A DNA stretch of 64,000 nucleotides, from NCBI GenBank assembly GCA_016283275.1, contig JAEEMP010000038.1, positions 1 through 64,000 of the forward strand, written 5' to 3'. Every line of letters starts with the position of its first letter. Position 1 is the stretch's first letter. Of the stretch, positions 16,491-64,000 are shown one piece after another. Both the position numbers and the translations under genes were made by a program. The notes under the pieces were generated by a model. The model did no database searches. It was given only the letters and a program-made list of their open reading frames with translations, and was not told the DNA's origin. The DNA is from Lachnospiraceae bacterium. GTDB taxonomy: Bacteria; Bacillota; Clostridia; Lachnospirales; Lachnospiraceae.

Positions 16491-16916
16491 ATGAAGACAT
16501 TTGAAGCACCTCAGTTAATGGAACTTGGTGTTGAATTTACTGCAGAAGGAGCTTTTGGCGAAAGCGGAAGCAATACTTACAATCCGCCCAGTGCTTGGCT
16601 TAATGATGATAATAACAATGGTGGTTCGCATACCGATGTAAGAGTACACTTTCAGAATCCTTTAAATCAATCATGTGAGAAATACAGAATTTATATTGAC
16701 TCCAGTATTGCGATCAAAGAGTTCCAGAGTTCTGAATTCTCGATCACAAAGGAATCTGATACATCATGGTATATTGATGTAAATCGTCATCTTAATGCAA
16801 ATGAATGGACAGATTTTATGTTCCAGGTTGCTGTTGAGGGCGGTTCTATTCGCGAGTCGGGTACAAGCGGCACTATGACAGAACTTAGTATAAGATCTGT
16901 TCAGCCCATTTATTAA
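16491..16916 (+). CDS. Leader-bearing RiPP-like precursor/exported protein with C-terminal beta-sandwich-like domain
   Basis: N-terminus MKTFEAPQLMELGVEFTAEG fits a lasso-type leader pattern (YxxPxLxxxG). About 120 aa of non-leader follow; next to an ABC exporter and PqqD-HPrK gene. Confidence 0.7.
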   Translation: MKTFEAPQLMELGVEFTAEGAFGESGSNTYNPPSAWLNDDNNNGGSHTDVRVHFQNPLNQSCEKYRIYIDSSIAIKEFQSSEFSITKESDTSWYIDVNRHLNANEWTDFMFQVAVEGGSIRESGTSGTMTELSIRSVQPIY

Positions 16917-16944
16917 TTATCGGTTTTTCTGGAAAATTTTATTT

Positions 16945-16975
16945 GGAACACCACCTGTGTGGTGTTCCTTTTTTT
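16945..16975 (+). terminator. Intrinsic terminator/attenuator between precursor-like gene and ABC exporter
   Basis: GGAACACCAC-CTGT-GTGGTGTTCC-TTTTTTT, perfect 10-bp stem. Confidence 0.92.
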
Positions 16976-16980
16976 GAAAA

Positions 16981-18759
16981 ATGGGAAAATTAAAATATTA
17001 TTTCAACAAGATAAAAGAAGGAAAACTTAAGAATAAGATCTCAATACTTAAATGGATATACGGTTATGCTGTAAAGCATATACCTGCCATCATTATTTAT
17101 ACTTTGCTGGGAATGACCGGTATTGTACTGGGGCTATTTACGAGTCTTAATTCCCGTGACCTTGTCGATATCATTACAGGACACAGGACGGGAGAACTTC
17201 TTAGGACTTTTATAATAATGATAGTATTGACCGTTGTTAATACTGTTGTTTCGCAGACATCCAATTTTCTTTCTACCAAGATCAGCCTTAAAGTAAATAA
17301 TGAGGTAAAGGCGCAGATTTTTGAAGGTATATTAAAGACCGACTGGCAGGCTTTATCAAAATATCATTCGGGTGATCTGGTCATGAGATGCGGAAGTGAT
17401 GCCGCGAATATTTCTTCGGGTATACTTACTCTTATGCCCAATCTTGTGATCTATATTTTCAGGTTCGCCTCCGCACTTTATATGGTATGCAGATATGACT
17501 GGACATTTGCGATATTTGCCCTTGCCAGTATTCCGGTTACCCTGATCAGTTCGCGTTATTCCATGAGAATGATGCGCAAAAGCGGTATGGGTACGATGAC
17601 GGCTGCCGCAAGCATGAACAGTTTTAATCAGGAAACTTTTTCAAATATACAGACCATCAAAGCTTTCGATATGCTTACATATCATATGGACAGGCTCAGG
17701 GAGATCCAAAAAGCTTATTCGGCTGCCACTCTTAAATATCAGAGGATTTCGATCGTAAATACATTTATCATGACATTTGTATCCATGCTGGTTTCCTATT
17801 CGGCTCAGGCATGGGGCATATATAAGGTGTGGAGCGGAGCCATAACTTACGGTACCATGACCATGTTTATAGGTCTGTCAAGTTCACTTACCGGAGCGGT
17901 TTCCAATCTTATAAGTTTTGTGCCGAGTTCGCTCAGTCTGTTTAACTCTGCGGAGCGTGTGAAGAATATTATGGATCTTCCGAGAGATGATTATTCAAAT
18001 TCCGAAGAAGTCGAGAGATTCAGGATAGAGCAATCCGGAAAGGGCATCGGTGTTAACGTTAGCGGAGCATCATTTGCTTATGACGGCGGCGAAAATGTAT
18101 TCTCGGGAGCGGATTTTGAAGCCAATCCTCACGAGACGGTGGCTTTTGTGGGGCCTTCGGGTGAAGGAAAGACTACCATGTTAAGGCTTTTGCTTGCGAT
18201 CATAAGGCCCGTGGAAGGACAGATACGAATAAACGGTGAGACTGAAGGTTCAAAAGAAAAAGATGAATACTTAAATGTTTCTGCCGCTTCAAGATGCCTT
18301 TTCGCATATGTACCGCAGGGTAATACCATGTTTTCGGGATCTATAGCTCAGAACATGAGAAATGTCAAGAAAGATGCTACGGACGAGGAGATCATCAAAG
18401 CGCTTAAGATGGCATGTGCATGGGATTTTGTCAATAAACTCCCGGATGGAATAGACAGTGAGATAGGAGAGCACGGAGGCGGATTTTCCGAAGGACAGGC
18501 TCAGAGACTGTCGATCGCCAGGGCTATTTTAAGACGTTCGCCGATCCTTCTTTTGGATGAGGCAACATCTGCACTTGATATATGGACGGAAAAGGAAGTA
18601 CTTAAAAATATCATGGCGGATGAATATCCCAGAACGACCATTATTACTACACACAGGCCGTCCGTATTAAGGCAGTGCGACAGAGTGTATGCGATACGCG
18701 GAGGCTCCTGCGTACGGCTTTCCGATGAAGAGATCAGCGAGATGGAGAATATGGGCTGA
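16981..18759 (+). CDS. ABC exporter (TMD-NBD fusion, no C39 peptidase)
   Basis: Walker A GPSGEGKTTM, YVPQGNTMFSGSIAQNMR Q-loop, signature FSEGQAQRLSIARA, Walker B ILLLDEATSALD. Confidence 0.93.
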   Translation: MGKLKYYFNKIKEGKLKNKISILKWIYGYAVKHIPAIIIYTLLGMTGIVLGLFTSLNSRDLVDIITGHRTGELLRTFIIMIVLTVVNTVVSQTSNFLSTKISLKVNNEVKAQIFEGILKTDWQALSKYHSGDLVMRCGSDAANISSGILTLMPNLVIYIFRFASALYMVCRYDWTFAIFALASIPVTLISSRYSMRMMRKSGMGTMTAAASMNSFNQETFSNIQTIKAFDMLTYHMDRLREIQKAYSAATLKYQRISIVNTFIMTFVSMLVSYSAQAWGIYKVWSGAITYGTMTMFIGLSSSLTGAVSNLISFVPSSLSLFNSAERVKNIMDLPRDDYSNSEEVERFRIEQSGKGIGVNVSGASFAYDGGENVFSGADFEANPHETVAFVGPSGEGKTTMLRLLLAIIRPVEGQIRINGETEGSKEKDEYLNVSAASRCLFAYVPQGNTMFSGSIAQNMRNVKKDATDEEIIKALKMACAWDFVNKLPDGIDSEIGEHGGGFSEGQAQRLSIARAILRRSPILLLDEATSALDIWTEKEVLKNIMADEYPRTTIITTHRPSVLRQCDRVYAIRGGSCVRLSDEEISEMENMG

Positions 18760-18770
18760 TAATAATTGTT

Positions 18771-19928
18771 TTATCGGATCGTTTTATCGATCTCCGCTTT
18801 GATGCATGCAGCCGCATCATCAGTCATATTGCAGTTATAATTCCATATCGGAATGGCGGAAGAAAGGCCTTTTGTAAAATTAAGGACATCTTCTGCCATT
18901 TTTTGTGTCCACATCGGAGATATGATCCTGTTTAATGATGCAAGTGCTTTGGCTTCGGGCTTCATGTGGCTTATGCTGTTCTTCGGATCCTGTCTTAACA
19001 GCACTATACCGATAATATCGTAGGTTTTTTTATCATAGATCCCGGAAGTTCCGCACCAGGGCATTCCGTATACATGATATGAACCGTTTTCGTTCCTGCC
19101 CAAAAGGTTCAGGTCGCCGTTTATCTGTTTTGTGCCATAAAGTCTGGTCCATATTGCTGCGTGTGTGCTTTTGCCTATACCCGAGCCTGCGGAGAACATA
19201 AGAGCTTTATTATCATATTCGACCGACACGGAATGAAGAGCATATAATCCATGTAAGCCCGCAAAATATAAGAACGCATGACGGATCGCCCAGAATACTT
19301 CGTCCTTGGCATTCTCGGGATCATTCACATATATTGAGACATCGGTTCCGTCAAAAGATATCTGTACTTCTTCGACATATTTCCAAAGAGGGAAGGTTAT
19401 TATATATTTATCATCAGTCTTTATGACTGTCACTTCTTTATCCCGCATTATCAACTCACCGTTTTCATGAAATACGGGTGCTATATGATACACATATATA
19501 TTCTGGATCCTGTCTTCTGAGCATGAGAAGGAATCATCCTCAAAATCTTTGAAACTGTCATCAAATAATCCGGATTTTCCGTATAGATTTAGACATAGCC
19601 CGGCGATATTGAGCTTTAAATGCTTTTTTAAATCAAATTTCTGATAAAAATCTCTGTCGATTACCATTCCCGAATAACAGAGAGTATCCATATAGCTTTG
19701 AATGGAACGCCTGGCATTAGGGCGCTCGTCTTCGGGTATTTCAAAGTATTCATAGCATTTATTGAAGATGTCTTCTATTGCGATGTCATCGGAAAGAAGA
19801 TTCCATATGAACACGCCGGTTTCATTTAAAAATGTACTTTTCTTTCTGTCGGCGGCGCATTGACCATGCGCAAGAAGACACGGAAGATTATTGATATATT
19901 CAAGAGAAAAATCATTATTTCTTATCAT
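18771..19928 (-). CDS. PqqD-like domain fused to HPr-kinase-like domain
   Basis: N-terminal STFLNETGVFIWNLLSDDIAIEDIF (PqqD-like) then LHSVSVEYDNKALMFSAGSGIGKSTHAAIWTR Walker A and NGDLNLL. Probable start 19928 (GGAGA RBS); the listed ORF runs to 19949. Confidence 0.82.
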   Translation of the reverse strand: MIRNNDFSLEYINNLPCLLAHGQCAADRKKSTFLNETGVFIWNLLSDDIAIEDIFNKCYEYFEIPEDERPNARRSIQSYMDTLCYSGMVIDRDFYQKFDLKKHLKLNIAGLCLNLYGKSGLFDDSFKDFEDDSFSCSEDRIQNIYVYHIAPVFHENGELIMRDKEVTVIKTDDKYIITFPLWKYVEEVQISFDGTDVSIYVNDPENAKDEVFWAIRHAFLYFAGLHGLYALHSVSVEYDNKALMFSAGSGIGKSTHAAIWTRLYGTKQINGDLNLLGRNENGSYHVYGMPWCGTSGIYDKKTYDIIGIVLLRQDPKNSISHMKPEAKALASLNRIISPMWTQKMAEDVLNFTKGLSSAIPIWNYNCNMTDDAAACIKAEIDKTIR

Positions 19929-20134
19929 AGTTGTCTCCATTATGAGCATTTGCTTATAACATCTTTAGTAATACATTAACAACTTATTATAGCATAAATA
20001 ATTATAAATAATGTGATCTAAACAGTATTTTTGATTCCATATAACAGAAATGCTGTCACGTTTATTGACGGGATAATATGGCCTGAAGTATATTCATATG
20101 AGAAAAGGGGTATATCATATGAGAGGAATTTGCA

Positions 20135-50694: not shown

Positions 50695-52917
50695 TTGATT
50701 ATGGGGAAAGATCAGATGGATGAAATCACAAGTCAGGTATTGACAGCGGTAAAGGCTGCAATTGCAAAAGAGAAGGCGGTATTTGAGGGCGATGTTGACT
50801 GGTATAAGTTAAGAGATTATCTGAAATTCGGCATACTCGACGGTATGTCATTTTCAGCTGTTTTGCCGAAGACTTTTAAAGATGATACAGAAGCCTCATT
50901 TTTGAACAACTGGAAACAATATTCTTTCCAGAGAGCAGTCAAGCAGATGGCGTCTGTGGGTTCTCTTTATAATGTACTAAAAAAGGGTGAAGAAGCAGGT
51001 GCAAAACCTGTAATATTTAAAGGAATAGTGCTGGCCTCTTTGTATCCGGAACCTTTTATGAGGTTTTCATCGGATGCCGATATATATGTGACACCTTCTG
51101 ACAGAAAAATAATGGAAGGTGTTTTTGATGAACTTGGATATAAGCTTATACCTGAAGTTTCCAAGGAACACGTTCCGCATTATGTGGGAACGGGTAATAA
51201 TGCCGCATTCCATATAGATCTTCATGACTGCCTCTGGGAGGACTATGAGGGAAAGCAGGCAAAACTTTTGGATTCCCTTAAATTGACCGATCCCGATACT
51301 TTTATTGAAGTTGAAGCCTGTGGGATAAAAGTCAGAACGCTTGGCATTACCGAACATCTGATTTTTCAGGTATTTCATGTAGTTAAGCATTTTGCGACCG
51401 AAGGGCTTCCTTTACGTTTTGTTACCGATCTTGCGCTTTATTCAAGGAAGTATGCTGACGAGATTGACTGGAAACGCTTTTGGAGCACTATGATGCTTTT
51501 GAAGTACGACGTGTTCTATAAATCGATCATGGAAGGGGCCAAAATATATCTTGGGATCGATGCTGATATTAAAGCACCCGAGAATATGAAACCCGGAAAT
51601 GTTGAGCTGCTTTTTGAAGAAATAGTGGCTTACGGACACAGAAAAAGCGATAACATTGAACATTATTTCGCGATCGGCTTTATATCCGGTTATTTTATGC
51701 GAAACAATACAAAGCAAAAAGGTCGTCTTTCTCAATTTCGTGCCAGATATTTTCCTTCAAGATCTGAACTTAAGGAAAAGTACGGATATGCCAAAAAGCA
51801 TGGCATATTACTCCCGATCGCATGGATACACAGATTGTTTGGCGCTTTAAGATTTTCTTTGATAAGTCGCAATAAAGGTATAGCGACAAAAGAAGTGCTT
51901 GAAAAGGCCAATGAAAGAGTAGGATTAATGAGCAAATACGGTCTGCTGGAAGAAAAGGGAGAAGAGAAGGCTTTTAACCCCGAAGACGTTTTGGTAAGTG
52001 TTGTAATCCCCACTTATGCAACTTCCGATTCGCTTAAAAGAGCGCTCGATTCCATACTCAGCCAGACACATACAAAACTCGATATTATCGTTGTGGACGA
52101 TAATCCTGCGGATTCCGATTACAGAAAAAAAGCCGAATCGGTGATGGATGCATATAAATATAATGATAATATCCGTTATATTAAAAATCCTCAAAATCTG
52201 GGCGGTTCCGGAGCACGAAATGTCGGTATTGAGGCGGCTAAAGGTGATTATATAGCTTTCCTCGACGATGATGATTATTATTATCCCACAAAAATAGAAA
52301 AGCAGCTCAATGTTTTTCTTAATACCGGGTTTTCGGAACTTGCACTTGTTTATTGTGATGTAGCTTATGAAGATAATTATGGCCGCATTACTTATATCGA
52401 GAGAAAGAGAATAAGAGGCAATTCGCTGTATAAGGCTTTAAAAGACGGCTGTATTGCCGCAACATCTCAGTGGCTTGTAAAAAAGAAAGCATTGCTCAGC
52501 GTGGGCTGTTTTACGATATTGCCGTGCAAACAGGATTCAACTGTTTTATTAAAACTATTGCGCGCAGGTTACGAAGTTGATTATGTGCCTGAGATATTAA
52601 GTATCTATCATGATGGTGTGGGAGAAGTCAGGATAAGTTTGGGATCCCGAAAAGTCGAAGGAGAGCTTACTTATGCCAACGCGTGTCGTGAATGTTACGG
52701 TGAGTTTACCAAACACCAAAGAAAACAGGTAGAATTCGGTATCGCCAAAAGGCTTTATGAAATATGGGCATATAAAGCGAACGGTGAAGGTGAATGTAAG
52801 AAATATTTATCGGTGATGAGAAAATCCGCACCGTTTAGAACATTTAAATTTCTTATAAGAACAAGACTGAGGTTGATTAAGAGGAAAGTGATCAAATGGT
52901 CAAAACAGCACTTATAA
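50695..52917 (+). CDS. Fusion of NTP_transf_5-like nucleotidyltransferase and GT2 glycosyltransferase
   Basis: N-terminal PVIFKGIVLASLYPEPFMRFSSDADIYV; C-terminal VSVVIPTYATSDSLKRALDSILSQTHTKLDIIVVDD...IAFLDDDD. Confidence 0.85.
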   Translation: MIMGKDQMDEITSQVLTAVKAAIAKEKAVFEGDVDWYKLRDYLKFGILDGMSFSAVLPKTFKDDTEASFLNNWKQYSFQRAVKQMASVGSLYNVLKKGEEAGAKPVIFKGIVLASLYPEPFMRFSSDADIYVTPSDRKIMEGVFDELGYKLIPEVSKEHVPHYVGTGNNAAFHIDLHDCLWEDYEGKQAKLLDSLKLTDPDTFIEVEACGIKVRTLGITEHLIFQVFHVVKHFATEGLPLRFVTDLALYSRKYADEIDWKRFWSTMMLLKYDVFYKSIMEGAKIYLGIDADIKAPENMKPGNVELLFEEIVAYGHRKSDNIEHYFAIGFISGYFMRNNTKQKGRLSQFRARYFPSRSELKEKYGYAKKHGILLPIAWIHRLFGALRFSLISRNKGIATKEVLEKANERVGLMSKYGLLEEKGEEKAFNPEDVLVSVVIPTYATSDSLKRALDSILSQTHTKLDIIVVDDNPADSDYRKKAESVMDAYKYNDNIRYIKNPQNLGGSGARNVGIEAAKGDYIAFLDDDDYYYPTKIEKQLNVFLNTGFSELALVYCDVAYEDNYGRITYIERKRIRGNSLYKALKDGCIAATSQWLVKKKALLSVGCFTILPCKQDSTVLLKLLRAGYEVDYVPEILSIYHDGVGEVRISLGSRKVEGELTYANACRECYGEFTKHQRKQVEFGIAKRLYEIWAYKANGEGECKKYLSVMRKSAPFRTFKFLIRTRLRLIKRKVIKWSKQHL

Positions 52918-54987: not shown

Positions 54988-56115
54988 GTGTCTGAGAAGA
55001 ATAGTATGTGGGCTCATTATATTGTCGATCTTAAAAAATTTAAGGCAAACTGTGATGAAGTAACAGTTCATTTTAACAATGAATGGAATAATAACGTAAT
55101 ATACGGATACTCCGTAAAGACGAACAGAGACAGTAAATTGTTAAAGTATGCTGTCGAAAAACTGGGCTGGTATGCCGAGATGGTAAGTCCCGATGAATAT
55201 GATTATTGTAAATCGGAAAATATCTCTGCGGGCAGAATGATCTTGAACGGTCCGTGTAAAGAATCAATGATATCGGAAGGCAATTATCGGGTAAAATATA
55301 TTAATCTTGATAATTTAGATGAAGTTTCAGTTTTCTGCAGCAAAGAAAAGGCAGATTTAAATGTCGGTTTAAGAATTAATTTTGATCTGGAAAAATTATG
55401 TCCGGGCGAGACTACTGCGGGCGATGAAGTGAGCAGGTTCGGTATAGATGCAGAGAGTGAGGATATAAAAAAAGCTGCCAAAATGCTTAAAGATGCAGGG
55501 TATGATAAGTTTGGCTTACATCTTCACACAAGCACCAAGACCAGAAGCTTAAAAGTTTTTGAATCGCTGGCAAAAGAGGCGTTAAAGCTTAAAGAAGAAC
55601 TGAATATCGATTTTTCTTTTATAGATATGGGAGGAGGTTTCTTTGGTGGACAGGTGGTAAGCGGAAAGCCTTCAATGCGAGATTATGCTGATACGATCTG
55701 CACTGTGTTAAGAAACGGATTTGATCCTGCCAAAACTACGCTAATTTTGGAGCCCGGTGCTTCGGTATTGGCTACCTGTGTATCGTATAAAGCCCAAGTA
55801 ATAAATGTAAGGAAGATAAGAGGGATAAATGTTGCCACTATCAACGGCACTTTGCTTCATTTAAACCCTTTTATGTCAAAAAGAAATCAGCCTTATGTGA
55901 TCTGTTCGGATGTCGGTTCACGAAAAAATGCAGAAAAGCAGATCATCTGCGGAGCAACGTGTATGGAAAATGACAGACTGGCTGTTGCCATAGATTCTCC
56001 GGAACTTGAAAAAGGCGATGAGCTCCTTTTTGGTAATGTCGGAGCTTATACAATGACATTTAATGCATATTTTATTCTTGATCCTCCAAAGACCGTTTAT
56101 ATAGGAGACGAATAA
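54988..56115 (+). CDS. Fold-type III PLP decarboxylase (DAP/ornithine decarboxylase family)
   Basis: VIYGYSVKTN (PLP Lys), FGLHLHTSTKT, FIDMGGGFFGG, LEPGASVLA, CGATCMENDRLA, GNVGAYTMTFNAYF; GTG start. Confidence 0.87.
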   Translation: MSEKNSMWAHYIVDLKKFKANCDEVTVHFNNEWNNNVIYGYSVKTNRDSKLLKYAVEKLGWYAEMVSPDEYDYCKSENISAGRMILNGPCKESMISEGNYRVKYINLDNLDEVSVFCSKEKADLNVGLRINFDLEKLCPGETTAGDEVSRFGIDAESEDIKKAAKMLKDAGYDKFGLHLHTSTKTRSLKVFESLAKEALKLKEELNIDFSFIDMGGGFFGGQVVSGKPSMRDYADTICTVLRNGFDPAKTTLILEPGASVLATCVSYKAQVINVRKIRGINVATINGTLLHLNPFMSKRNQPYVICSDVGSRKNAEKQIICGATCMENDRLAVAIDSPELEKGDELLFGNVGAYTMTFNAYFILDPPKTVYIGDE

Positions 56116-56124
56116 GGCAAAATC

Positions 56125-56583
56125 ATGGTATCTATTATCAGTTTTATCAAGCATAATGACAATAAAATGATGACTGTCCAAGCATGGGCATATGCTGCCT
56201 GGTACAGGTTTTTGATAAGATTCAGGTCCCGTAAACATCTTGAGAAACATTGGGGTGTTTTAGGCGAGGAAACCGGTCAGACTCTTACGCTTGAACAGTA
56301 CAAATATGCACGGCTTGTGTCACGACAGGTTAACCGTATCGCCAATCATACACCGTGGGAAAGTAAGTGTCTGGTTCGTGCACTTGCTGCCCGACGCTTT
56401 TTGTGTAAGAAAAAAATATCCAATACTCTTTATCTGGGTGTGGGGAAAGATGAGACAGGAAAGATGGTGGCCCATGCATGGATCCGTGCGGGCTCTGCGT
56501 ACGTAACAGGCGGAGACGGCTCTGAGTATGCGACCGTAGCAATGTTTAAGAACGAATTTAAGGATGAAAGTCAAAGCGATTAA
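56125..56583 (+). CDS. Lasso-peptide B2-type transglutaminase-like leader peptidase
   Basis: WESKCLVRALAARRFLCKKKISNTLYLGVGKDETGKMVAHAWIRAGSAYVTGG: Cys and His motifs of B2 (PF13471-type). Confidence 0.88.
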   Translation: MVSIISFIKHNDNKMMTVQAWAYAAWYRFLIRFRSRKHLEKHWGVLGEETGQTLTLEQYKYARLVSRQVNRIANHTPWESKCLVRALAARRFLCKKKISNTLYLGVGKDETGKMVAHAWIRAGSAYVTGGDGSEYATVAMFKNEFKDESQSD

Positions 56584-56640
56584 ATGAATATCTTACAGTT
56601 TTGATAGAATCTGTTGCTATTTTATAGGACTCAAGTAATA

Positions 56641-56655
56641 TGTTTATTGTAAACA
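56641..56655 (+). promoter_or_regulatory. Palindromic operator candidate upstream of precursor A1
   Basis: TGTTTA-TTG-TAAACA, overlapping a second repeat TTATTGT-AA-ACAATAA; just downstream of a TAATAT -10-like hexamer. Confidence 0.4.
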
Positions 56656-56712
56656 ATAATTAAGTCTTAAATGAAAGAGACAAATATGACAACAGAAAAA
56701 GGAGAATTAAAA

Positions 56713-56916
56713 ATGAAGAAGTTTAACAATGCTGAAGTCGTAGAACTTAGTCTTGACAAGACAGAAAATGGTCTTTGGGATAGCGATATCGAGACAAATG
56801 TATGCGGTGGAGGTTGGAATCCCTTTTATTTATTCACAGAGAATGATAGTAAAAAGCCTGAACAGCCTACAGATCAGAAGCCTGTAACACCTGCTGATGA
56901 GACTTCACTTTCATAA
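56713..56916 (+). CDS. Putative lasso-type RiPP precursor A1
   Basis: MKKFNNAEVVELSLDKTENGLWDSDIETNVCGGGWNPFYLFTENDSKK...ADETSLS. Strong RBS GGAG at 56701; leader shared with 62052..61858 and 16491 genes. Confidence 0.8.
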   Translation: MKKFNNAEVVELSLDKTENGLWDSDIETNVCGGGWNPFYLFTENDSKKPEQPTDQKPVTPADETSLS

Positions 56917-56931
56917 TAATGAATAGTAACG

Positions 56932-56970
56932 TCGGCCAGATCATATTTGATTTGGCCGATTTTTTTTTTT
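56932..56970 (+). terminator. Intrinsic terminator/attenuator downstream of precursor A1
   Basis: TCGGCCAGATCA-TATT-TGATTTGGCCGA followed by 11 T. Confidence 0.92.
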
Positions 56971-56999
56971 GTAGTAATATGTATATGAGAGGTGACAAA

Positions 57000-58925
57000 A
57001 TGAGCGGGATATACGGTTATTTTTCGACATTATCTGAAAATAATACAGATATCAATAAAATCTATGCGTGGAATAAGGCATATGGGATAAAAAACGAAAC
57101 GGTAAAAGAAAAAAACTATGGAATGGGTTGCTGTCTCGATTTATTGAGTAATAAATCCACACCCGACAGATGTGTAATATGTAACGATACATATTCTTCT
57201 GTTTTTGATGCCTTGATATATAACCGTAATGAACTTATAAAAAAATATGATCTGCAGGAATCCTTATCTGACGAGGATATTATTTTTTTTATAGTGACCC
57301 GAAGCGGATTGGAAGATTTGAAATATATAAACGGAGATTTTTGCGGAGCCGTATATAATGTTAAAAAAAATGAATTGATCCTTTTCAGGGATCATATGGG
57401 TGTGAGACCGCTCTTTTATTACTATGACGGATTACGCGTTCTTTTTTCAACGGACATACGCGGCATAATATCACAAAGTTCTTTGAATCTGGAACTTGAT
57501 GAAAAGTCTTTGTTTATTGATTGTAAAGGGTATTCAAAGATAACCAGAGAGCGGACGGAATTTAAAAACATTCATATGGTTAGGTCATCCAATTATATTG
57601 TTTTCAAATTGACTTTGGATAAGATAACCATGTCATCATATCCTTATTGGAAATTTGCAACCCGTAAAGTAAGGTTTTCATCGGAAGAGAAATACTATAA
57701 TGAACTTCGAAGGCTTATAGAGGATTCTGTAAAAAGGCGACTGGATGTTCTTGACGACCCGGTTGGAAGTGAATTGTCCGGAGGACTTGATTCAAGCGTA
57801 ATCAGCATTCTTATAAACAGATTCGGACGTAAATGTTTTTATTTTTCGTGGTCGAAATCTCCGGAAGAAAAGCCGTTTGTAGATAATGATGAGAGATATA
57901 AGATTAAAGATATCTGTGACCGTGAAGGAATATCTTGTATGTATACAAGGCTTGGAGAAGGACTGGACGATGAGAGTATCATTGCCGAAAAAACCAGAGC
58001 CATAGGAATCGGGACAGAAGAAAGTGCTGAAGGATTATTCATGAAATATGCTTTACCTTCGTATATAAATACAACACTTATCAGTATCACGGCTCAGGCA
58101 TTAAGAAGAAAGGGCTCGAGAGTTGTTTTTTCGGGGCATGGAGGCGATGAAGGCGTAAGCCATCGTTCAAGACCGTATGAAATGCTCAATTATCATGAAT
58201 ATTATCGGTATTTCAGATATATGTTCTCGTTGACACACGGAAAGAAACACAGAATTATAAGAACGATAAAAAATTGCAGAAGCGAAATAAAAGAAGCAAG
58301 AGTAAAATTAAGGGAAGCCGCCGTCTTTAAAGAGTCGGAATATGAAATATTAAACAGAGATTTTACGGAGCGGATGAAAAACGAGCACTTCTTATCACAC
58401 ATGTTTACATACTCTCCGAAAGAGTATATTGAAAACGGTGGGAGCGAGAACAGACTGTATAACACGGCAATTCAGGGTGCTTATTCGGATGTAAGGTATA
58501 TTTTTCCTTATCTCGACTACAGAGTTGTGGATTACGCTTTATCGATCCCACGTTATCTGTATTTAAAAGGCTGGATGAACAGATATACTTTCAGATCCGC
58601 ATTTAAGGATATCCTTCCTGAATCCGTGTATCGTGAAAAATCAAAGAAAGATTTAAGTTGGATCAATTCACAAGGCGGTGAGGAACCTGACTTTTCGGCA
58701 TTAAGTGAATATTATCGTCAGAGAAAGGCTGATATCGTTAAAGGTCTGTCACGTGATTATTGGGATAAATATCTTGATTTTGAAAGGATAGATAAATGGG
58801 TAAAAAGAACATATACATCCCAACAGGAAATTGATATTGACAGTGAGATTGCGGATTTTTTAGGTCATTGTGTGCTTATAGAAAATATGGTAAGAAAATC
58901 ACAAGCTGTATCTTCAAATGTGTAG
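57000..58925 (+). CDS. Asparagine synthetase-like lasso cyclase (C1)
   Basis: MSGIYGYFS N-terminus (Cys2 replaced by Ser), SELSGGLDSSVISIL PP-loop, VVFSGHGGDEG. RBS GAGGTG before ATG 57000; the listed 56919 start lies upstream of the terminator. Confidence 0.87.
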   Translation: MSGIYGYFSTLSENNTDINKIYAWNKAYGIKNETVKEKNYGMGCCLDLLSNKSTPDRCVICNDTYSSVFDALIYNRNELIKKYDLQESLSDEDIIFFIVTRSGLEDLKYINGDFCGAVYNVKKNELILFRDHMGVRPLFYYYDGLRVLFSTDIRGIISQSSLNLELDEKSLFIDCKGYSKITRERTEFKNIHMVRSSNYIVFKLTLDKITMSSYPYWKFATRKVRFSSEEKYYNELRRLIEDSVKRRLDVLDDPVGSELSGGLDSSVISILINRFGRKCFYFSWSKSPEEKPFVDNDERYKIKDICDREGISCMYTRLGEGLDDESIIAEKTRAIGIGTEESAEGLFMKYALPSYINTTLISITAQALRRKGSRVVFSGHGGDEGVSHRSRPYEMLNYHEYYRYFRYMFSLTHGKKHRIIRTIKNCRSEIKEARVKLREAAVFKESEYEILNRDFTERMKNEHFLSHMFTYSPKEYIENGGSENRLYNTAIQGAYSDVRYIFPYLDYRVVDYALSIPRYLYLKGWMNRYTFRSAFKDILPESVYREKSKKDLSWINSQGGEEPDFSALSEYYRQRKADIVKGLSRDYWDKYLDFERIDKWVKRTYTSQQEIDIDSEIADFLGHCVLIENMVRKSQAVSSNV

Positions 58926-58971
58926 CAAGATTTGATATACGAAAACAGCAAATTGAAAATGGAGCATAATA

Positions 58972-59853
58972 ATGTATCAGTATCGTGCGTATGGTATAGG
59001 AATACATTCCGATTTTAAACTTTATAATTTTGATGAGACAAAGACAGATGCGGATGTATATATCCGCAAGATCCACTCGGGACTTGACAGAGCGGAATGT
59101 GCGCAAAAGAAAAAGTGGATAGAATATAATGACGATAATGCGTGGGTTATGAGTACTTTCGCCCAGTTTTTTATCAGGGAAGGAAAATATATTGATGTCT
59201 TTGTGGAAAAAGAGGCCACTTACATTGAAATTGCTGCTTTTATATGTGGCTGGTGCATGGCTTTTTTATTTACACAAAGGGGTTATTCCGCTATTCACTG
59301 TGCCGCTCTTGAGTTTGGCGATGGCTGTGTTCTTGTTTCGGGCACAAGCGGTGCGGGCAAAACGACGACATCTCTGGAGCTCATTAAGCGTGGGCACAGG
59401 TTTTTGGCAGATGATATAGCCATGATCCGCCCTGAAGATGATTTTCTGGTCCGGCCGGCTTTCCCTATGCAGAAAATATGCCGGGATGTTGCAGAAGCGA
59501 CACAGAATAAAGACTTACTTTATATAGATGCCGATAAGGATAAATTTGCAAAAATGAATTATGAAGACTTTTGTGACATACCTAAACCGCTAAAGGGAAT
59601 GGTAATGTTAAATAAGAGTTATGACGGCGATCTGGAGGTCACGGAGTACAAAGGGTTTGATAAATATTTAAAAGTATTCAGTTCGCTGTTTATTGGGAAA
59701 TTGTTTATAGATAACGGTGTAGATAAAAATGAACAGTACCGGATGTTAAAGCTGGCTGAGAAGATTCCTTATCTTTCGATAACCAGGCCGCTTAACAGTG
59801 ATACGCTTAATGAAGTTTGTGATGCCATAGAAGATTTTTACGGTCGGGAGTAG
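58972..59853 (+). CDS. HPr-kinase/phosphorylase-like peptide kinase
   Basis: GYSAIHCAALEFGDGCVLVSGTSGAGKTTTSLELIKRGHRFLADDIAMI. Confidence 0.87.
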   Translation: MYQYRAYGIGIHSDFKLYNFDETKTDADVYIRKIHSGLDRAECAQKKKWIEYNDDNAWVMSTFAQFFIREGKYIDVFVEKEATYIEIAAFICGWCMAFLFTQRGYSAIHCAALEFGDGCVLVSGTSGAGKTTTSLELIKRGHRFLADDIAMIRPEDDFLVRPAFPMQKICRDVAEATQNKDLLYIDADKDKFAKMNYEDFCDIPKPLKGMVMLNKSYDGDLEVTEYKGFDKYLKVFSSLFIGKLFIDNGVDKNEQYRMLKLAEKIPYLSITRPLNSDTLNEVCDAIEDFYGRE

Positions 59854-59858
59854 GAAAA

Positions 59859-61778
59859 ATGTCTGCAATATGGGGAATAATCGGACGAAACGGTAATAAT
59901 GTCGAATCTCTTTTTAAGGATATGACCGATATTACTAAAAAATACAGGATCGACAGAACGGATTGCTTAAGCATCGGTAATGCATATTTTGCGTGTGGTC
60001 ATGCTCACATTACAAAAGAGGCCTTTCGTGATGTTTCTCCGGTTTATGATAAAAAGCGCGAAATATTGTTTACTGCGGATGCATTTCTCACAAACAGAGA
60101 TGAATTGACGGCAGAATTGTCACAAGCCGGTTCGACCTCTGATCCTGAAGAAGCGGGAGATGCATTTCTCTGTTATACAGCGTTTTTAACTTTTGGCCGT
60201 GATTTTGTAAAACATATCAAGGGCTCGTTTTCAGTTGCAGTGTATGATATCAATGCAAATAAACTGTCACTGTATGCGGATCCTATGGCAAGACGCTATC
60301 TTGCTTATCATATAGGGGATGGATCGGTATGCTTTTCCACAACATATGATCCCATTAAGAAATGCATGGGCAAGGTAGAATTAAATGAACAAGGTATAGT
60401 TGAATATTATACAAGTATTACGCCCAGGACATTCAGATCCCCCGATCTGACCGTATATAAAGACATATATCATGTTAATTGCGCACAGGTAGTGGACATT
60501 GATATAGCCTCGGGAAAGAAAATTCAAAAAACATATTACGAGGTGGGAAAAGGCTGTAAAACATTTAAGAACATCAGTGATGAAGAATGCAAAAAAATGT
60601 TTGTGGATACATATCGCAAATGTGTAAAGAGTATGTTAAGGTCTTCGGGTGAAACTGCTGTTTTATTGAGCGGGGGTCTGGATTCATCTTCGGTTGCGGC
60701 ACTTGCGGCTGAAGAACTTGCAAAAGAAGGCAAAGATCTTTACAGTTATACAATGCTTCCGGCATCCGGATACAAATATACCAACAGCCGGACGATTTCC
60801 GAAAACGAAAAGCCTCACGTTGAAGCTCAAAAAGAAATCCATCCGAATATAATTACCAATTATGTTACCGGTGACGACGGTTGTATCTTTACAAGACTTG
60901 ATGAATATACGGATCTTTTTGAATGCCCTGTAAAGGTTAGTAATATCGATAATATAATAAGAATGGTCAAGGAAGCCGATAAAGCAAATTGCAAACTGAT
61001 CATGGGCGGGGCAAACGGTAATGCCTCTGTTTCTTACGGCAGCATAATGTTATTGCTGTCGCATCATATTTTAAGATTCAGGTTTGTTAAAGCATATAAG
61101 GCACTTACCGAGTTTTGCCGGGCCAGACATATTCCCCGCAGATATATGGTAAAGTATTATCTTGAAAATGCAGTGAGATATTTTACTTCATATTTCAATT
61201 TCGGCTTATACGGATTGGTAAAAAAGGAGTATAGAAAAAAATATAATTTATTAAAACGCGAGAGAAAAGAGCTTCATGCGTACGGATCGGACATTTTCTC
61301 GACCAAACGCCAGCGGAGGGCATTCATTTATAATCGATATTTCTTTCAGCATATCGGATTTTATGATACTTATGTAAGCCTGCTGTATGGAGTATATACG
61401 GTCGATCCGACAGAAATGTTAGATATGATAGAGTTTTGTCTGAGGATTCCGATCGAATATCAGGTAAAGGGTGATATTGAAAGACGAACCATAAGAGAAT
61501 ATATGAAAGAATACTTACCGGAATGCGTATATTCAAATCGCGTAGGGCGCGGTATTCAGTGTGCGGATATAGATTACAGAGTTAATCGTGACTGGGAAGA
61601 TGTAAAAGAAGGGATCAGGAATGATCTGAGCAATCCTTTGCTTAAACATTATCTGGATAATGAAGAAATACGATCGTTGCTGAAACTTACAGAGGAAAGT
61701 AAAGATCCCATTTCCAGGATGGATGTTTTAAGATTATATGCGGTCTCTTCTTTGGGTTCATTTTTGAATAAACAATAA
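59859..61778 (+). CDS. Asparagine synthetase-like lasso cyclase (C2)
   Basis: MSAIWGIIGRNGN N-terminus lacking Cys2, VLLSGGLDSSSVAALAAEEL PP-loop, KLIMGGANGNASVSYG. Confidence 0.85.
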   Translation: MSAIWGIIGRNGNNVESLFKDMTDITKKYRIDRTDCLSIGNAYFACGHAHITKEAFRDVSPVYDKKREILFTADAFLTNRDELTAELSQAGSTSDPEEAGDAFLCYTAFLTFGRDFVKHIKGSFSVAVYDINANKLSLYADPMARRYLAYHIGDGSVCFSTTYDPIKKCMGKVELNEQGIVEYYTSITPRTFRSPDLTVYKDIYHVNCAQVVDIDIASGKKIQKTYYEVGKGCKTFKNISDEECKKMFVDTYRKCVKSMLRSSGETAVLLSGGLDSSSVAALAAEELAKEGKDLYSYTMLPASGYKYTNSRTISENEKPHVEAQKEIHPNIITNYVTGDDGCIFTRLDEYTDLFECPVKVSNIDNIIRMVKEADKANCKLIMGGANGNASVSYGSIMLLLSHHILRFRFVKAYKALTEFCRARHIPRRYMVKYYLENAVRYFTSYFNFGLYGLVKKEYRKKYNLLKRERKELHAYGSDIFSTKRQRRAFIYNRYFFQHIGFYDTYVSLLYGVYTVDPTEMLDMIEFCLRIPIEYQVKGDIERRTIREYMKEYLPECVYSNRVGRGIQCADIDYRVNRDWEDVKEGIRNDLSNPLLKHYLDNEEIRSLLKLTEESKDPISRMDVLRLYAVSSLGSFLNKQ

Positions 61779-61801
61779 AAACGATCATTTTTGAGATAAT
61801 A

Positions 61802-61836
61802 AAAAAACCTTATGGAATAGTTTCCATAAGGTTTTT
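61802..61836. terminator. Bidirectional intrinsic terminator between C2 and precursor A2
   Basis: AAAAACCTTATGGAA-TAGT-TTCCATAAGGTTTTT. Confidence 0.9.
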
Positions 61837-61857
61837 GCTTTTGTTTCGGTTTTAAAC

Positions 61858-62052
61858 TCAACCAGGCATGTTAATGTGCATTCCTTCTTCGTCTCCGCTG
61901 GGATAAGGAATACCATCTTGGATGGTGCTCTTATCGATTATTCTTGCATCCTTGTCTGCCCACTGAGCATCAAGACCTGTAGGATTGGGATCAGCCTGTG
62001 CGGTAGCCTTAAGACTAAGCTCGATAACTTCTGCATTGACAAACTTCTTCAT
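61858..62052 (-). CDS. Putative lasso-type RiPP precursor A2
   Basis: MKKFVNAEVIELSLKATAQADPNPTGLDAQWADKDARIIDKSTIQDGIPYPSGDEEGMHINMPG. AGGAGG RBS on minus strand before ATG 62052; leader nearly identical to A1. Confidence 0.8.
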   Translation of the reverse strand: MKKFVNAEVIELSLKATAQADPNPTGLDAQWADKDARIIDKSTIQDGIPYPSGDEEGMHINMPG

Positions 62053-62242
62053 TTTAAATTCCTCCTTATAATGTACCTTTATAGTAATTGTTATTATTTT
62101 TGTCACATCTGACAGTTGTAATATTATCGTATGTCAACCAAAGAGTAAAGGATTGTAACAAAATTGATAGAAATTGCTTGATATCCATAAGATCAACATT
62201 TCATGCGTACAATAAAGTATTTTAAGTTTACAGAAAATAGTA

Positions 62243-62248
62243 TATAAT
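62243..62248 (+). promoter_or_regulatory. -10 element candidate upstream of the PqqD gene
   Basis: TATAAT within AGTATATAATATCTG. Confidence 0.35.
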
Positions 62249-62313
62249 ATCTGTGTATGTGTCAAACAGTTTGGGGTACTTTACAAGACACAAAAACAGG
62301 AGGGTAATTTTTT

Positions 62314-62580
62314 ATGGATCGTTCAACAGTGGTAAGGCTTACAAAACAGTTAAATGTTACTGACCTTTCGGGTGAAAAGGTTATGGTTGACTTTGAATCC
62401 GGTAAATACTTTTTAATCAAAGGTGTCGGTAATGACATATGGGAGCTTATACAGAATGAGATCACGGTAGGCGAGATCATAGATAAGCTTATGTCGGAAT
62501 ATGAGGTTGAAGAGGCTGTCTGTGAAAAGTCCGTTTATGACTTTTTGGATCGCCTTAAAGAGTTGGGGTTCATCGGATAA
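62314..62580 (+). CDS. PqqD-like RiPP recognition element (B1-type) protein
   Basis: VMVDFESGKYFLIKGVGNDIWELIQNEITVGEIIDKLMSEYEVEEAVCEKSVYDFLDRLKELGFI is a classic PqqD/RRE pattern. Confidence 0.9.
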   Translation: MDRSTVVRLTKQLNVTDLSGEKVMVDFESGKYFLIKGVGNDIWELIQNEITVGEIIDKLMSEYEVEEAVCEKSVYDFLDRLKELGFIG

Positions 62581-64000
62581 ATGGGAAAACTAAAATCATT
62601 ATGGGATGACAGGAACAATCAGTATAAATATTTTAAATGGCTGATGTACTATTCAAAGCCTTATTTTTGGCGCATCGTACTTATGATGAGTTTCTCAATG
62701 ATAGGTACGGTGTTTTCACTTTGGATGGTAACCATATCCAAAAACATCATCGATCGAGCAACGGAATCGAACGGTACGGTGGGTGTCTTTGATAAGGGCG
62801 GATTTGGATATCTTATAATCCTGTATGTCAGCCTTATGCTTATCATGCAGGTTGTTAATATAGTTGCTTCCCTGTTAAGCCAGATAATTGTTGAGAAATT
62901 TTCATTCGGTATACGTAAACAGGTATATGAGAAGATCATCAATTCCACTTGGCTTGATATCACAAAGTATCACACCGGGGATCTGATGACCAGACTTACC
63001 AGTGATGCGGGAGCCATTGCCGACGGTATTGTAGGAACCATTCCGGGGATCATTCAGTTGATGATAGAACTTGTTATGGTCTTTTTTACTTTGTTTTATT
63101 ATTCTCCGATGCTTGCAATACTTGCATTGTGTATCGCTCCTGTAGCCGGGATCACATCCTGGTTTCTGGGACGTAAGATGAAGCGCCTTCAGGTTAAGGT
63201 TCAGGAATCCGAAGCCGCATATCGTTCTTTTATACAGGAAAGTCTTGCAAATGTTTTAATTGTTAAGTCTTTTGCCAATGAAGGTTATTCGGCTGACAGA
63301 CTTACAAAGCTCAGAGAGAACAGATTTTATTGGATATTTAAAAGAGCAAAACTGTCGCTTGCCAGCGGAACGGTTCTGGGTCTTGGTTTTCAGATCGGTT
63401 ATATTTCCGCATTTGCTTACGGAGCATATCAGATTTCCAGAAAACTTATTACTTACGGTACAATGTCGGTATTCTTAACATTGGTAAACCGTGTGCAGTC
63501 GCCTATAATAGGTCTTGCAAAGCAGATCCCGCACATAGCTTCCATACTTGCGTCCGCAGGACGTGTCATGGAACTTCAGTCTATTCCTTTGGAAGAAAAA
63601 CTGCCTGAAAATATCAATTCCGATGAAATAGGTATCAAGATCGACAATCTTACTTTCGGTTATACCGACGAGACGGTCTTCGAAGATGTATCGCTTGATA
63701 TCAAACCCGGCGAATTTGTGGCAATAATAGGTGAGTCCGGTATAGGAAAGACCACTTTGGTGCGTATCATAATGTCATTTATGAACGGACTTAAGGGAAA
63801 TGTAGCGTTTTATAACGGAAACGGAGATGTAGAGCGTGCAAATGCTTCCACAAGAGAATTTATAGCATATGTGCCGCAGGGTAATACGCTGTTTTCCGGT
63901 ACCCTTCGAGAGAATATTAGAATGGGTAATCTTAATGCGACCGAAGAAGAGATGTGGGATGCATTAAAACTTGCCGCAGGCTATGATTTTGTAAAAGATC
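62581..64000 (+). CDS. ABC exporter (TMD-NBD), 3'-truncated by window edge
   Basis: Translated by eye: ATG immediately after the PqqD stop; MGKLKSLWDDRNNQYKYFKW..., IGESGIGKTTLVRI Walker A, YVPQGNTLFSGTLRENIRMG. Related to the 16981 exporter; not in the ORF track because truncated. Confidence 0.93.
   Translation, partial: MGKLKSLWDDRNNQYKYFKWLMYYSKPYFWRIVLMMSFSMIGTVFSLWMVTISKNIIDRATESNGTVGVFDKGGFGYLIILYVSLMLIMQVVNIVASLLSQIIVEKFSFGIRKQVYEKIINSTWLDITKYHTGDLMTRLTSDAGAIADGIVGTIPGIIQLMIELVMVFFTLFYYSPMLAILALCIAPVAGITSWFLGRKMKRLQVKVQESEAAYRSFIQESLANVLIVKSFANEGYSADRLTKLRENRFYWIFKRAKLSLASGTVLGLGFQIGYISAFAYGAYQISRKLITYGTMSVFLTLVNRVQSPIIGLAKQIPHIASILASAGRVMELQSIPLEEKLPENINSDEIGIKIDNLTFGYTDETVFEDVSLDIKPGEFVAIIGESGIGKTTLVRIIMSFMNGLKGNVAFYNGNGDVERANASTREFIAYVPQGNTLFSGTLRENIRMGNLNATEEEMWDALKLAAGYDFVKD

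Follow-up and report, generated by a model that had tools for sequence, protein, structure and literature searches.

We analysed a window of 64,000 bases, positions 1-64000 of contig C58 (90,784 bases), from a Clostridia genome that its relatives place with the Lachnospiraceae (2.46 Mb in 130 contigs, 86% complete). Towards the end of the window lies a gene cluster of the lasso peptide type, embedded in an island of glycosyltransferase and flippase genes. Its gene order is B2 (leader peptidase), A1 (first precursor), C1 (first cyclase), an HPr kinase (HPrK)-like gene, C2 (second cyclase), A2 (second precursor, on the minus strand), B1 (leader-binding protein) and an ATP-binding cassette (ABC) exporter (Table 1). 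The original prediction had listed the same eight genes, each of which we found at its predicted position; only the start of C1, previously set at 56919, was moved, ATG 57000 being the most likely start. Descriptions of lasso peptide pathways usually feature a single cyclase in each cluster. The cluster in the window probably yields two lasso-type peptides from one B1/B2/ABC set and two cyclases of different clades, as judged from gene content, phylogeny and residue conservation.

Table 1. Features of the cluster and its upstream neighbour (window coordinates)
Feature	Position	Strand	Evidence or remark
NTP_transf_5 and glycosyltransferase 2 fusion, possible tailoring gene	50695..52917	+	PF14907 (117.9 bits), PF00535; membership uncertain
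B2, transglutaminase-like leader peptidase, 152 residues	56125..56583	+	NF033537, PF13471; Cys82, His117
A1 precursor, 67 residues	56713..56916	+	Shine-Dalgarno; G1, E8, Thr17 conserved among relatives
Terminator-like hairpin, A1/C1 gap	56931..56960	+	13 pairs, then 10 T; 1 found, 0.3 expected
C1 cyclase, Glu8-associated clade	57000..58925	+	Best NCBIfam model is lasso cyclase; clade SH-aLRT 100
HPrK-like kinase, C2-side group (K2)	58972..59853	+	PF07475 over cut-off; kinase trees
C2 cyclase, canonical Firmicutes (paeninodin-like) clade, Asp9-associated	59859..61778	+	Best model is lasso cyclase; clade SH-aLRT 100
Two-way terminator-like hairpin, C2/A2 gap	61803..61836	-	15 pairs; sites on both strands
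A2 precursor, 64 residues	61858..62052	-	Shine-Dalgarno; D9 in 11/12 C2-side candidates
B1, PqqD-like leader-binding protein (RiPP recognition element, RRE)	62314..62580	+	NF033536 over cut-off
ABC exporter	62581..64000	+	PF00664, PF00005; ends 299 bases past the window (L007:7581-9299)

The processing proteins are readily assigned. B2 scored 81.9 bits against NF033537 lasso_biosyn_B2 (cut-off 33) and 74.3 bits against PF13471 (cut-off 26), and it retains both Cys82 and His117. B1 reached 81.8 bits against NF033536 lasso_PqqD_Bac, 1.8 bits over the cut-off of 80, and 68.8 bits against PF05402. The exporter carries PF00664 and PF00005 and shares 55-70% identity with its counterparts at related loci. 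Both cyclases exceeded the cut-offs for Asn_synthase (PF00733) and GATase_7, so that the profile searches proposed in the original prediction, PF13471 for B2, PqqD for B1 and PF00733 for both cyclases, all gave matches over cut-off. The lasso cyclase model NF033535 was the top NCBIfam model for C1 and C2 (151.6 and 151.3 bits, compared with 146.6 and 85.1 bits for the asparagine synthase model TIGR01536) and the best profile match in all C1 proteins tested. The assignment to a lasso-type cluster thus held, with B1 and B2 over lasso-specific cut-offs; the outcome named beforehand as counting against it, profiles pointing to ordinary asparagine or amide synthetases and to a 152-residue protein outside the B2 family, did not arise.

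The two cyclases had been taken for duplicates, which the phylogeny does not bear out. They share only about 24% sequence identity, while C1 orthologues from a family-wide search are 41-44% identical, and in the cyclase tree they belong to two old, separate clades with orthologues elsewhere, each with a Shimodaira-Hasegawa-like approximate likelihood ratio test (SH-aLRT) support of 100. The C1 clade (36 rows) sits on a long branch of its own, and the C2 clade (19 rows) takes in enzymes of Priestia and Paenibacillus adjoining paeninodin-type precursors. Lasso-type and AsnB-type rows are split by a branch with a support of 99. This is a quick tree with several long branches, and the branching order at its base is uncertain; on the tree together with the 24% identity, we rejected a recent duplication of cyclase and precursor. 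The active-site signatures also differ, being GH[GA]GDE in 38/39 C1 proteins (GHGGDEG in the window) and GxxGNx[ST][VI]S in all 19 C2 proteins. By tree and profiles, C1 falls among the lasso-type cyclases in a separate clade from Clostridia. The contig scan recovered about 40 C1 loci, nearly all from Lachnospiraceae or other Clostridia of herbivore guts, and the family extends over more than 30 Clostridia genomes, mostly from such guts. A Bacteroidales cyclase with the GHGGDEG motif (L088:8707-13607), flanked by HPrK-like and NTP_transf_5 genes, grouped weakly as the sister lineage of C1; no B2 relative was detected in its stretch.

The polysaccharide island raises the question of whether the AsnB-like proteins are ordinary amide or polysaccharide amidotransferases belonging to it and the small open reading frames (ORFs) chance occurrences, a view to which the low scores of C1 and C2 against the curated lasso cyclase cut-off (see below) also lend themselves. 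Glutamine-dependent synthetases require a glutaminase Cys2. This residue is absent from both clades, being replaced by Ser in 36/39 C1 proteins, including that of the window (the starts of the other three are truncated or misassigned), and by Ser or Ala in the C2 proteins, and the genome encodes a separate Cys2-bearing AsnB-type synthetase (L008:5821-7692). With B1 and B2 over lasso-specific cut-offs and the precursors conserved across dozens of genomes, we regard the amidotransferase explanation as extremely improbable.

Both precursors are preceded by a Shine-Dalgarno sequence. A1 comprises a proposed leader, MKKFNNAEVVELSLDKTEN, and a proposed 48-residue core (GLWDSDIE...) from 56770 ending in Ser; A2 comprises a proposed leader, MKKFVNAEVIELSLKATAQ, and a proposed 45-residue core (ADPNPTGLD...) from 61995 ending in MPG. 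Cores of 45-48 residues had been considered unusually long; published rumen cores of up to 44 residues (PMC7533575) and the relatives found here, which reach about 70 residues, show such lengths to be normal for this family. Each core starts with a small residue and carries an Asp or Glu at positions 7-9 (Gly1/Glu8 in A1, Ala1/Asp9 in A2), as conserved in the relatives. We searched for further precursors by the leader pattern and a Shine-Dalgarno sequence, demanding no ring acid. Near C1-clade cyclases, Glu occupied core position 8 in 34/37 candidates and Asp9 occurred in none, whereas near C2-type cyclases 11/12 candidates had Asp9 and none of the 12 had Glu8. The three C1-side exceptions are a peptide of a different type next to a radical SAM gene (L062), an apparently spurious ORF (L074) and an ORF from the other strand of an incomplete contig (L078); the C2-side exception is a spurious ORF within a gene for a cyclase. 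In a strict non-redundant set of 29 C1 loci, Gly1, Glu8 and leader Thr17 were each found in 29/29 and a C-terminal Ser in 27/29, the remaining core positions being variable; a further locus outside this set (G646) agrees with the Gly1/Glu8 pattern.

Because each cyclase clade comes with its own precursor type, we predict a Gly1-Glu8 ring for A1 and an Ala1-Asp9 ring for A2. The two-product reading of the original prediction thereby stands in its pairs A1/C1 and A2/C2, but the grounds for the pairing shift from gene position to ring residue, C1 going with Glu8 and C2 with Asp9. The leaders of A1 and A2 are similar; B1 would bind both and B2 would cut them off. As ATP-dependent macrolactam synthetases, C1 would then join Gly1 to Glu8 of A1 and C2 would join Ala1 to Asp9 of A2, and the single ABC exporter would secrete both products. 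The common B1/B2 and the similar leaders within one cluster would also suit a scheme in which both cyclases act in succession or jointly on each precursor, or in which one is active and the other a relic or helper. We consider this very unlikely, as other loci contain C1 without C2 or C2 without C1, each with its own precursor type, and the ATP-binding motif SGGLDS is intact in both cyclases.

Precursor arrangements vary among the relatives. At L055:3396-6357, a single C1 cyclase lies amid three distinct Glu8 precursors, two before it and the third after it, on the opposite strand. Two further peptides (L062:12068-12265 and L100:1720-1932) combine the same leader with a core starting GGFYW, no ring acid and a Ser end; the former adjoins a radical SAM protein and the latter lies between two HPrK-like kinases. 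Perhaps they belong to a further class of modified peptides that draws on this leader family.

Both cyclase types occur within about 10 kb of each other at nine independent loci. Other C1 loci consist of precursor and cyclase only, often plus a kinase. Among C1-carrying genomes without B2 near the C1 locus in the examined stretch, B2 was found elsewhere in 12/13, compared with a background of 9/298 genomes in the family sample; in at least one of these 12, Butyrivibrio VCD2006, B2 and the C1 locus share a contig and are about 12 kb apart. In the genus richest in C1 loci, B2 was present in 9/9 C1-carrying and 15/70 other genomes (Fisher p = 6e-6). In one nearly closed genome, a satellite A and C1 pair is surrounded by housekeeping genes, and the complete canonical cluster that contains the genome's only strong B2 hit is about 0.88 Mb away. 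Supply of B1 and B2 in trans to such satellite loci is thus supported, not proven, by these co-occurrences. The C1 clade would travel with its Glu8, Ser-ending precursor either beside a canonical Asp9 cluster or as a bare A and C satellite using B1/B2 from elsewhere. We lean towards the view that the Gly1-Glu8 satellites are two- or three-gene modules, a distinct cyclase clade with its own Ser-ending precursor, depending in trans on the B1, B2 and exporter of a canonical Asp9 cluster, so that one leader peptidase would serve several cyclases and products per cell like a hub with spokes. A Butyrivibrio genome with one strong B2 hit carries three separate C1 loci (L064, L067 and L069), each with its own Glu8 precursor.

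The kinases require a different assignment from the one first proposed. The kinase gene at 58972-59853 is present as predicted, exceeds the cut-off for Hpr_kinase_C (PF07475) and retains the His, the Walker A Lys and the Asp-Asp. In the kinase trees, HPrK-like kinases form two groups, a C1-side and a C2-side group, and the window kinase groups with C2-side kinases of two other loci (L041 and L057). A kinase of the C1-side type lies outside the window, 12 kb past its end (C58:76017-76958, minus strand), and likewise scored as HPrK-like with its catalytic residues. The paeninodin kinase targets the Ser at the C-terminus of its precursor (PMC9266682). A1 ends in such a Ser and A2 does not; because of this, and of its C1-side type, the kinase at 76017, rather than the one in the cluster, is expected to act on A1. 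The C-terminal Ser of A1 is therefore a likely target of the 76017-76958 kinase, and A2 is the likelier substrate of the kinase in the cluster. Its action as the C-terminal Ser kinase of A1 appeared less likely from the trees, and this assignment was given up. The gene of the 76017-76958 kinase has those of a response regulator and a histidine kinase directly behind it on the same (minus) strand (C58:74509-76958, L130); at two other loci (L147 and L148), genes of these two kinds come after the ABC gene. A 690-residue protein at L041:5420-7492 has HPrK-like N-terminal and NTP_transf_5 C-terminal parts, as though one protein combined phosphorylation with a subsequent modification.

Several observations weigh against two lasso products made in the proposed way. 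C1 and C2 fall far under the curated NF033535 cut-off of 525; we regard this as an unfair bar, because a Priestia protein annotated as a lasso cyclase also misses it (388.8 bits), and the canonical cyclases of B. fibrisolvens and L041 reach 187-191 bits. A PDB search with the C1 profile matched asparagine synthetases and beta-lactam synthetase and no lasso cyclase. The contrast of C1/Glu8 with C2/Asp9 reflects a single evolutionary split, not many, because all C1 loci share one ancestor; the weight of the evidence is the conservation of Gly1 and Glu8 inside an otherwise variable core. Leader similarity within loci, tried as a test for shared leaders, was only weakly above chance (p = 0.048). 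The window kinase and the A1 tail are mismatched by clade. Lasso leaders usually have a penultimate Thr (-2). The invariant Thr17 lies at -3 of the proposed core, as in published Lachnospiraceae cores, and the cut may therefore fall one residue earlier, giving rings of 9 and 10 residues.

A narrower doubt concerns threading. C1 might close the Gly1-Glu8 ring unthreaded, in which case the A1 product would be a long-tailed, branched-cyclic macrolactam and A2/C2 alone would give a true lasso. The separate C1 clade on its long branch would fit this, as would its GHGGDE loop in place of GxxGN and the long C1-side tails rich in Pro, Thr, Ser and Asp, and threading leaves no testable sequence feature. 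Microcin J25, however, has the same 8-residue Gly1-Glu8 ring, the C1-side precursors belong to the same leader family, their B1/B2 dependence is suggested by co-occurrence, and lasso cyclase is the best profile throughout the C1 proteins tested. We therefore consider an unthreaded A1 product unlikely and retain two lasso-type peptides as the preferred reading.

As for the remaining features, terminator-like sites follow both precursor genes (1 after A1 and 3 after A2, with 0.3-0.4 expected), and these hairpins may keep precursor transcripts in excess over those of the enzymes. A pyridoxal phosphate (PLP)-dependent decarboxylase gene (54988-56115) stops 9 bp before B2; we left it out of the cluster because no homologue was found near any C1-related locus. 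Stand-alone PF14907 genes adjoin B2 in L041 and L100. The window also contains a third locus resembling those of ribosomally synthesized and post-translationally modified peptides (RiPPs) at 16491-19949. It encodes a 141-residue peptide with the same leader spacing (MKTFEAPQLMELGVEFTAEG), followed by a terminator, and an ABC exporter 33% identical to that of the cluster; a PqqD protein whose C-terminal part is HPrK-like is encoded on the minus strand, and the locus has neither cyclase nor B2.

Two cyclase clades beside one B1/B2 set offer a natural test of which cyclase features determine ring size and acceptor, a matter of practical interest to lasso engineering. Our literature search found no description of two cyclases sharing one B1/B2 set; key papers were outside its reach and an earlier description elsewhere is possible. 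Microcin J25 resembles the A1 product in the proposed ring, and differs in being proteobacterial, with a fused B protein, an unrelated core and a single cyclase. The C1 family appears to have been overlooked by published rumen surveys. One survey reported leaders of the same kind with Thr at -3, and cores that reach 44 residues and have Asp as their only acceptor (PMC7533575); two of its isolates, Butyrivibrio MC2021 (L072) and VCD2006 (L071), carry C1 loci with Glu8 precursors missing from its Table 3. The Hungate1000 survey required Gly-x7-Asp and PF13471 in the cluster (PMC13289728), a rule that would exclude Glu8 precursors and satellite loci; any mining rule demanding "Gx7D" or a same-cluster B2 would miss the C1 family.

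The closest known systems are otherwise familiar. Paeninodin-type Firmicutes clusters share the A gene, split B1/B2, C, HPrK-like kinase and ABC genes, C2 belongs to the clade of the cyclases beside paeninodin-type precursors in Priestia and Paenibacillus, and A1, like paeninodin, ends in Ser (PMC9266682). Unlike that type, the window has a second, unrelated cyclase and a second precursor, Thr at -3, cores of about twice the length and kinase clades split between the two sides. Pseudomycoidin involves a kinase, PsmK, and a nucleotidyltransferase, PsmN (PMC9266682); NTP_transf_5 genes beside B2 in relatives and the upstream fusion here are reminiscent of it. The domain is fused here and lies three genes from B2, and any action on these peptides would be speculative. 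Lasso clusters of Butyrivibrio and other Lachnospiraceae (PMC7533575; PMC13289728; pNP243) share MKxW leaders with Thr at -3, an Asp8/9 acceptor and cores of at most 44 residues, and the B. fibrisolvens plasmid pNP243 shares the order B2-kinase-C2-A2(minus); unlike the cluster described here, these reports list Asp acceptors only and one kind of cyclase.

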